Source: an uncultured Geobacteraceae bacterium
GTDB taxonomy: Bacteria; Desulfobacterota; Desulfuromonadia; Geobacterales; Pseudopelobacteraceae
Assembly: GCA_903876875.1 (NCBI GenBank)
Contig: CAIRBT010000137.1
Span: forward strand, 1-39,157
Direction of reading: 5' to 3'
Length of the DNA: 39,157 nucleotides
Shown piece after piece: positions 38,415 through 39,157 of this stretch (position 1 is its first letter; each line of letters opens with the position of its first letter). The notes under the pieces are model-generated. The model was not told the DNA's origin and searched no databases. It saw only the letters and a program-made list of their open reading frames with translations. The translations under genes and the position numbers were made by a program.

Positions 38415-38582
38415 CTAGGAGTCTGTCGGACTTAGGGAATCGTCGCGAAAATTCGGCTGGGCGAGAGCAGATTTCGACGATTATGAAGGTCAATAGTCGT
38501 TCTATTGACCGAAAAAGCGGTGAAATATGATCCGTTCAGACGGATTTGCAGCAGATTCCTCCTAAGTCCGACAGGCTCCTAG
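38415..38582. mobile_element. MITE-like non-autonomous element with terminal inverted repeats
   Basis: About 168 bases bounded by CTAG. The left end GAGTCTGTCGGACTTAGG is inversely repeated at the right end with one mismatch (C for T), so the terminal repeats are 22 bases including the CTAG. CTAG could be a target duplication. Inside are two hairpins: GGTCAATAG/CTATTGACC at 38488-38510, and ATCCGT/ACGGAT at about 38530-38545. No transposase is encoded. It is probably moved by an IS with the same ends elsewhere in the genome. Confidence 0.75.
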
Positions 38583-38708
38583 CATATATTGTTTGATACA
38601 TAAAGTAATAATGAATGGTCGATGGTAAAATGCCATCAACATACGTGGTGCTGCAATCTATTCGGCCTTTCCGGTCGAAATCGTAAATCATAATGCGGAA
38701 TTTCACGC

Positions 38709-38738
38709 CGTCGGGGCGTATGGCCATACGCCCCGACG
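38709..38738. repeat. REP-like palindrome, copy 2 (perfect, 30 bases)
   Basis: Left half CGTCGGGGCGTATGG is the exact reverse complement of the right half CCATACGCCCCGACG. It matches the copy at 20028-20057 except for a few compensated and one uncompensated changes. No RAYT transposase is in the window. Confidence 0.7.
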
Positions 38739-38748
38739 CACATTTGGA

Positions 38749-38805
38749 ATTGCCCGGATGGGCAATCGGCTATAAACCGGGATTTACCCTTCACCCGGAG
38801 GGTGA
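38749..38805 (+). other. Cluster of small hairpins with GGA loops, possible sRNA or CsrA-type sites
   Basis: ATTGCCC-GGAT-GGGCAAT (38749-38766) and TCACCC-GGA-GGGTGA (38791-38805) each present GGA in the loop, the feature recognised by CsrA/RsmA. Shorter pairings lie between them. No promoter or clear terminator was identified, so this may be intergenic debris. This belongs to the 714-base gap (38378-39091), in which no other gene was found before gltB. Confidence 0.3.
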
Positions 38806-38849
38806 TTTCCCCCCCGCAACAATTTTTTAATCACATTTCAAAACTTCTT

Positions 38850-38874
38850 GTACATAAAGTACTCATCAGTGTAC
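38850..38874. promoter_or_regulatory. Candidate enhancer for the gltB sigma-54 promoter
   Basis: GTAC occurs three times, at 38850, 38859 and 38871, in a short AT-rich tract about 130-155 bases upstream of the promoter, where activator sites of sigma-54 promoters usually lie. The symmetry is suggestive only. Confidence 0.25.
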
Positions 38875-38992
38875 TATGGCAACACATAAATGACGGGCAG
38901 GGGAGGGGATGTCGGTGGGTTTGCCTGTGAGGGCTTTGCTAACTAGCTAAATTTTCACTTGTCACCACGGTTTTTCGTTTTTTGCGCAACTA

Positions 38993-39009
38993 TGGCACAC
39001 TCCCTGCTA
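38993..39009 (+). promoter_or_regulatory. Sigma-54 promoter of gltB
   Basis: TGGCACACTCCCTGCTA matches the -24/-12 consensus: TGGCAC complete, GG at 38994-38995 and GC at 39006-39007 with exactly ten bases between, and one mismatch (C for T) before TGC. The predicted start is near 39019, giving a leader of about 73 bases. Confidence 0.8.
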
Positions 39010-39021
39010 GCAAAACTGTCC

Positions 39022-39059
39022 ACGTCCATTCCGATGGGTGTCAGGAGTACCGACTCCTG
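39022..39059 (+). promoter_or_regulatory. Two abutting hairpins in the gltB leader
   Basis: Hairpin 1 (39022-39041) pairs ACGTCCAT with ATGGGTGT (two wobbles) around TCCG. Hairpin 2 (39042-39059) pairs CAGGAGT with ACTCCTG around ACCG. They directly abut and fill most of the predicted leader. No terminator follows. The architecture recalls dual-hairpin targets of RNA-binding antiterminators, without matching the known loop rule. Confidence 0.5.
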
Positions 39060-39091
39060 GTCTACGAAATACATTGATAAAGGTTATTTCC

Positions 39092-39157
39092 ATGAAAAAG
39101 AACCGGGCACCAGTAAAACAGGGACTGTACGATCCTCAATTTGAGCATGACGCCTGC
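39092..39157 (+). CDS. gltB: Glutamate synthase large subunit, N-terminus only (runs off the window)
   Basis: The first 22 codons: MKKNRAPVKQ then GLYDPQFEHDAC. This is the distinctive start of the glutamate synthase large chain, where a short propeptide precedes the Ntn-type glutaminase domain; the Cys encoded by the very last codon of the window is expected to be the nucleophile (the family continues CGVGF). The enzyme makes glutamate from glutamine and 2-oxoglutarate in ammonia assimilation. AAGG lies eight bases before the ATG. A sigma-54 promoter and two leader hairpins point to nitrogen-responsive control. Only the N-terminus is seen, so domain order cannot be checked. Confidence 0.88.
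   Translation, partial: MKKNRAPVKQGLYDPQFEHDAC

Follow-up and report, generated by a model that had tools for sequence, protein, structure and literature searches.

Sigma-54 promoter, upstream TACTCA site and leader hairpins of a glutamate synthase gene (gltB) in an uncultured Geobacteraceae bacterium

Organization of the gltB upstream region

The window analysed here is a stretch of 39,157 nucleotides from an uncultured Geobacteraceae bacterium (positions 1-39,157 of contig CAIRBT010000137.1, assembly GCA_903876875.1). It ends inside a gene whose sequence reads from an ATG at 39092, with the first 22 codons occupying 39092-39157 of the + strand. Contig C183 of the same genome begins with the last 115 bases of the window and then continues the long gltB frame. 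The first 132 residues of the product match the GATase_2 domain, and identity amounts to 86-88% with nine named records (six Geobacter/Geobacteraceae, two Desulfuromonadaceae and one Proteobacteria). By homology the gene is gltB, encoding the large subunit of glutamate synthase of the GATase_2 type. The elements recognized in front of it are listed below.

38859-38874, + strand: predicted activator site GTACTCATCAGTGTAC, an inverted repeat at about -160 to -145, assigned from conservation of TACTCA in the genus
38940-38949, + strand: TAACTAGCTA, short conserved element at about -79, with TAACTA in 17 of 34 upstream regions
38993-39008, + strand: sigma-54 promoter TGGCACACTCCCTGCT (-24/-12), GG-N10-GC, kept in 36/36 same-genus gltB leaders
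39019-39020, + strand: predicted transcription start, placed by sigma-54 promoter geometry 12-13 nt past the -12 C
39022-39041, + strand: hairpin 1, ACGTCCAT-TCCG-ATGGGTGT, 8 pairs including 2 G-U, counterpart of the single 5'-end hairpin of the genus
39042-39059, + strand: hairpin 2, CAGGAGT-ACCG-ACTCCTG, 7 Watson-Crick pairs, lineage-specific
39079-39083, + strand: AAAGG, ribosome-binding-like by sequence; AAGG-like stretches precede the start codon in many relatives
39092-39157, + strand: gltB, first 22 codons, frame continued on C183, GATase_2 match

Two further features were recorded upstream of the gltB regulatory region: a 168-bp MITE-like element at 38415-38582, whose 22-nt terminal inverted repeats are 95% complementary (CTAGGAGTCTGTCGGACTTAGG), and a perfect abutting 15-bp inverted repeat, CGTCGGGGCGTATGG/CCATACGCCCCGACG, at 38709-38738.

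For comparison we used the same genus (g1), comprising the genome of the window and 38 others (39 genomes), and leaders from a subset of the 89 genomes of the order in which gltB is present. The basic genus set contains 34 leaders and omits G013, whose contig starts inside hairpin 2, G014, in which gltB is divided among contigs, G023, where gltB gave no match, and G043. With the later inclusion of G111 and G112 the set grows to 36 leaders; 11 order-level leaders are excluded from all genus counts.

The promoter was taken to be the 16-mer most like a sigma-54 element no more than 220 bases from gltB. In the window it carries GG and GC ten bases apart in the context TGGCAC-N5-TTGCW expected of an RpoN promoter, and the GG-N10-GC element recurs in 34/34 genus leaders and in both later additions. 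In other genera of the order a sigma-54 promoter precedes gltB in g10 (3/4), g13 (1/1), g17 (1/1) and g15 (10/10, several with weaker -24 boxes), as well as in 10/10 readable g9/g22 leaders, one further g9 locus (G084) being without a readable start; it is absent from the five g12 leaders. The interval 38590-39157 yielded no sigma-70-like site. Such conservation places the predicted promoter beyond chance. The preliminary description of this DNA had proposed a -24/-12 element ahead of gltB and sigma-54 control of the gene; the element is there, and the control is supported by conservation both of the promoter and of the upstream TACTCA site discussed below.

RpoN control of glutamate synthase (GOGAT) is not new, since an RpoN promoter has been predicted before the GOGAT operon GSU1235-GSU1239 of G. 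sulfurreducens (PMC2725144). The two arrangements are alike in having a predicted RpoN promoter ahead of glutamate synthase genes. They differ in that gltB of G. sulfurreducens (GSU1239) closes a list of five genes and is annotated as a 'glutamate synthase-related protein' (PMC2725144), whereas here a gltB of the GATase_2 type directly follows the promoter. The passages on GOGAT in that source name neither a leader element nor an upstream site (PMC2725144).

Hairpins of the gltB leader

With transcription starting at the predicted 39019-39020 the leader would be 72-73 nt long; the leader string taken from the window, like the 73 bases shuffled below (39020-39092), includes the A of the start codon. 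The abutting hairpins of 8 and 7 pairs with TCCG and ACCG loops described previously are present at 39022-39041 and 39042-39059, but a conserved two-hairpin control element is not supported, for relatives show extra folding only near the 5' end. In 26-nt segments of the 34 genus leaders the mean fold z was -1.58, -1.89 and -1.02 at leader offsets 4, 8 and 12, and from -0.13 to +0.36 elsewhere, except for -0.71 at the last offset (n 7). The extra folding relative to shuffles thus lies in segments that cover bases 1 to about 20 of the predicted transcript, with none at the place of hairpin 2. Taken singly, 16 of 34 leaders had a 30-nt segment below p 0.05, that of the window not being among them.

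At least five pairs are predicted in 26/34 genus leaders and fewer than five in 8/34. Counted from a start that is itself predicted, the first pair falls at +1 to +4 in 20/34, at or just before the start in seven and at +5 to +10 in six, one leader being unpaired. The common form of this 5' hairpin is CCCGCA-N5-TGCGGG; two genomes (G008 and G015) have quite different arms (TTACGC/GCGTAA) that still pair.

Covariation, suggested earlier as a check on the leaders, gave a divided answer. Within the genus, native arms pair better than arms taken from different species (z -3.4, reached in 0.0008 of permutations, n 34), and this was so for 27 representatives under 75% identity (0.006) and for the 36 leaders (0.00065). 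The swap test is not clean, however, since two of its five control offsets were borderline (p 0.037 and 0.0495), the other three being not significant. Outside the genus it gave no support, with 0.87 for 15 leaders from other genera of the family and 0.34 for 13 g9/g22 leaders. A sequence-only alignment had 63.3% of cells paired versus 62.3% in shuffled columns, that is, no excess covariation, although sliding the arms on it lowers pairing to 32-44%; RNAalifold predicted no pairs on the alignment of 34 leaders. The hairpin near +1 appears to be a feature of the genus for which covariation evidence is mixed, and its stem is probably real but loosely kept. As to whether relatives might lack both hairpins, a point raised in the preliminary description, counterparts of hairpin 1 are kept in the genus and hairpin 2 is found only in G013.

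This G013 is a very close relative; none of the other genus leaders examined has hairpin 2, and the leader of the window exceeds that of G032 by about 22 nt. Contigs C116 of G013 and C183 of the genome of the window (G000) both start at the base matching 39043, one base inside hairpin 2 (L084, L085), and their first 141 bases are identical; two contigs starting at one base suggest strain variation just upstream. Hairpin 2 was also considered as a dispersed repeat and rejected: G000 holds no second copy of the 18-mer with fewer than 2 mismatches, and the sites with up to 2 mismatches number 18 in G000 (the known one included) versus 16 for a reversed-pattern control, and 12 versus 15 in G013. 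Rfam models, glutamine riboswitches included, matched nothing in the window when gathering scores were applied, and nothing in 38950-39157 with the limit relaxed to E 5.

The hairpins of the window might have no function, hairpin 1 being a drifted remnant of the genus feature and hairpin 2 a chance or inserted palindrome. The fold energy of the window leader is ordinary (z -0.18 for 39020-39095 and z 0.00 for its first 30 nt), a single hairpin of at least 7 pairs arises in 30% of shuffles of 39020-39092 (3.5% if only Watson-Crick pairs are allowed), and the restriction of hairpin 2 to this genome and G013 fits the same view. The folding excess seen across the genus at the offset of hairpin 1 speaks against it, as does the rarity of the pair: two abutting hairpins of at least 7 pairs, G-U allowed, occurred in 0.22% of 5000 dinucleotide shuffles, an optimistic figure given that the shape was chosen after looking, and two such hairpins anywhere in 1.7%. 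We regard absence of function as unlikely, though a serious contender.

The inverted repeat at +1 to +20 could instead act as DNA, serving as the operator of a dimeric repressor that blocks the promoter or early elongation. Both halves (CCCGCA...TGCGGG) are recognisable in many genus leaders, and the counts on the fixed alignment show conservation and not covariation, as an operator would have it. On the other hand, the spacing of the arms varies among relatives when judged by eye, G-U pairs occur, the swap test (two of whose five control offsets were borderline, as noted) has the arms changing in concert, and the copy in the window is far from the consensus palindrome. As a regulon-wide operator CCCGCAN5TGCGGG was rejected: it occurs at 18 places in the 39 genomes against 8 for the control, and only the one in G027 is at gltB. 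This rarity of the consensus elsewhere in the genus argues against a shared operator, and we consider the operator reading improbable.

ANTAR proteins and the nifH leaders

Nitrogen genes of Geobacter use RpoN together with an ANTAR-type RNA-binding regulator that acts on dual hairpins (GnfK/GnfR), and the preliminary description raised a variant of this type of control as one possibility for gltB. The genome of the window encodes one ANTAR protein, a REC-ANTAR of 188 aa, whose gene is preceded by a sigma-54 element of its own, the end of which lies 28 bases ahead of the ATG (L003 1062-1105). An ANTAR match was obtained in 54/58 genomes, this one included, and two of the four without a match are incomplete assemblies. 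In several relatives from other families the coordinates place the ANTAR gene near nifH. GSU2822 is listed as gnfR, nitrogen fixation response regulator (PMC7962754). The targets of ANTAR proteins are described as two hairpins with hexaloops in which A occupies the first loop position and G the fourth; substrates have been predicted in Desulfotomaculum reducens at glutamate synthase genes and in Pelobacter carbinolicus at nitrogenase units (PMC3369931).

The gltB leader resembles the ANTAR leaders of EutV, NasR and AmiR in having two neighbouring hairpins before a nitrogen gene, the genome also encoding a REC-ANTAR protein, but differs from them in its tetraloops in place of A1/G4 hexaloops, in the lack of an intrinsic terminator that overlaps the second hairpin and in the second hairpin being unconserved (PMC3369931). 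No A1/G4 hexaloop hairpin was found in 38901-39157 and no + strand terminator-like site in 38590-39157, as the preliminary description had already observed of the loops and the terminator. Among the 36 genus gltB leaders an A1/G4 hexaloop hairpin of any kind occurs in one (G007), the nifH-type element described below in none, and a TTTT run in five. Outside the genus, G047 is without an ANTAR match, yet its gltB leader, which follows a sigma-54 promoter, forms a strong 5' hairpin (z -3.9), whereas G053, G055 and G057 of the Geomonas group have ANTAR and the promoter and no 5' hairpin at gltB, which is suggestive, on four genomes only, that hairpin and ANTAR do not go together.

The leaders of nifH are also sigma-54-dependent by prediction and also precede a nitrogen gene. 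They differ from that of gltB, in the genome of the window and in its relatives, in having a hexaloop hairpin that overlaps an intrinsic terminator and in being without the TACTCAN3GWGT site. The A1/G4 hairpin GGC[AAAGGC]GCC (once AATGGC) is present in 27/30 nifH loci, and in 16/19 of those from the genus. The 27 are L219 (G000:C15) and 26 further loci among L220-L247, in which the hexaloop is followed by a GC-rich repeat and a run of T. TTTT lies within 60 bases in 25/27, and at nifH of the genome of the window the hexaloop overlaps a terminator-like fold ending at the T run. A further standard pair directly flanks GGC/GCC in 17/27, and a hairpin with a G4 hexaloop lies within 50 bases upstream in only 8/27. 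The nifH element is consistent with the layout of ANTAR antitermination, the dual hairpin being not proven.

Binding of both gltB hairpins by the REC-ANTAR (GnfR-like) protein as a variant target, for which the single such protein with its sigma-54 element, the frequency of ANTAR matches and the predicted substrates in other bacteria might speak, is very improbable in view of the loops, the missing terminator, the poor conservation, the discordant outgroup genomes and the nifH leaders that carry the A1/G4 loop and terminator instead. The gltB leader is not supported as a target of ANTAR antitermination by the three sequence features compared (loops, terminator, conservation). Of the earlier alternative, 'a variant or a different RNA control element', the second is the better half.

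The upstream TACTCA site and a candidate activator

The preliminary description missed a conserved site at about -159. TACTCA is present in 31/34 same-genus gltB upstream regions (shuffle mean 2.1), and of its 45 occurrences 23 fall at -157 to -161 and 15 at -137 to -140. The consensus is TACTCAN3GWGT, to which many relatives add a second TACTCA 21 bases on; in the window the first copy is intact and the second degenerate. A conserved site of this kind, predicted from sequence, stands where an RpoN promoter is expected to have its activator site. Nearer the promoter, 17 of 19 occurrences of TAACTA in the 34 upstream regions fall at -77 to -79. The TACTCAN3GWGT site was found at 0/26 nifH promoters, with a lone TACTCA or TGAGTA further up in three, and at none of 55 other sigma-54-like sites of the genome of the window (88 sites in 71 surrounding loci, of which the 55 with a following ORF were kept).

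We propose as a joint explanation, with a probability of about one half, that gltB has an enhancer-dependent sigma-54 promoter and a cis-acting stem-loop at the 5' end of its transcript, that hairpin 2 was inserted with no known addition, and that ANTAR is not involved. An enhancer-binding activator at TACTCAN3GWGT, ~160 (in many relatives also ~139) bases upstream, would switch on the promoter, and the transcript would begin with a short stem-loop at or adjoining its first base. The stem-loop would most likely hide the 5' end from RppH and RNase E in cis and so tune the life of the mRNA; the second, unrelated hairpin would have been inserted behind it in this lineage, adding nothing known. 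Of these parts, comparison shows the promoter, the upstream site, where the 5' hairpin lies and how narrowly hairpin 2 is distributed, while the start site, which activator it is and what the hairpin does are inferred. A 5' hairpin is reported to stabilise bla mRNA and to impede conversion of its 5' end by RppH (PMC3997798). Like the stabilising 5' stem-loops of E. coli (papA, ompA, and bla to which a 5' hairpin was added; PMC3997798), the hairpin of gltB would lie at the 5' end or a few bases from it, judged from the predicted start; a stem of this kind is expected to begin within about 4 nt of the end. It differs from them in being a prediction from sequence. By this analogy 5'-end protection is the plainest role for it, a DNA operator or no function being the alternatives.

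A candidate for the activator came from the tandem pattern TACTCAN3GWGTN8TACTCA, searched with one mismatch allowed in the 39 genus genomes. It occurs 29 times in 27 of them, that of the window not being among the 27, versus twice for the reversed control, and by coordinates 25 of the 29 occurrences precede gltB. Two of the four others (G004, G034) precede genes for one GAF/sigma-54 activator. The protein of G004 has Sigma54_activat and GAF domains and matches NF038230, 'GPMC system transcriptional regulator' of NCBIfam, with 1560.8 bits (cut-off 1200); in G034 the gene preceding that of the activator matches NF038231, 'GPMC system MBL fold metallohydrolase', with 398.7 bits (cut-off 360). Orthologues of the activator are encoded in 37/39 genus genomes. 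Upstream DNA of their genes, scored in 36 genomes, agrees with the site in at least 9 of its 10 positions in 28 and in all 10 in 26, mostly 35-48 bases ahead of the start codon (for example L327 and L328); this scoring supersedes a smaller one of 22 loci, 20 of which had at least 9 of 11 positions. At the activator gene of the genome of the window the site is weaker (8 of 10 positions, shuffle p 0.15). No activator gene beside gltB was matched in the motif scan of gltB loci L004-L029 and L085-L129.

Since the gltB site recurs before the gene of the GAF/sigma-54 activator and at 0/26 nifH promoters, that activator, and not GnfR, most likely controls gltB, as far as comparison of sequences can indicate. 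A fuller proposal, which we offer tentatively and at somewhat less than even odds, is that gltB of this genus is driven by a dedicated, self-regulating GAF sigma-54 activator through a TACTCAN3GWGT enhancer common to both genes and apart from the circuit of nif and ANTAR. On this view the GPMC system would be linked to ammonia assimilation via GOGAT, with the 5' hairpin as a second, post-initiation layer.

The GPMC system itself is little described: no paper on it was found in the literature collection searched, and the name of its regulator was found only in a family database (NCBIfam). The tempting link between ANTAR and gltB gives way in this analysis to a testable one, a conserved enhancer joining glutamate synthase to a GAF-type activator. 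If the enhancer link is true, it proposes a metabolic target for the GPMC regulator, and it suggests that in these bacteria different sigma-54 inputs govern GOGAT and nitrogenase.
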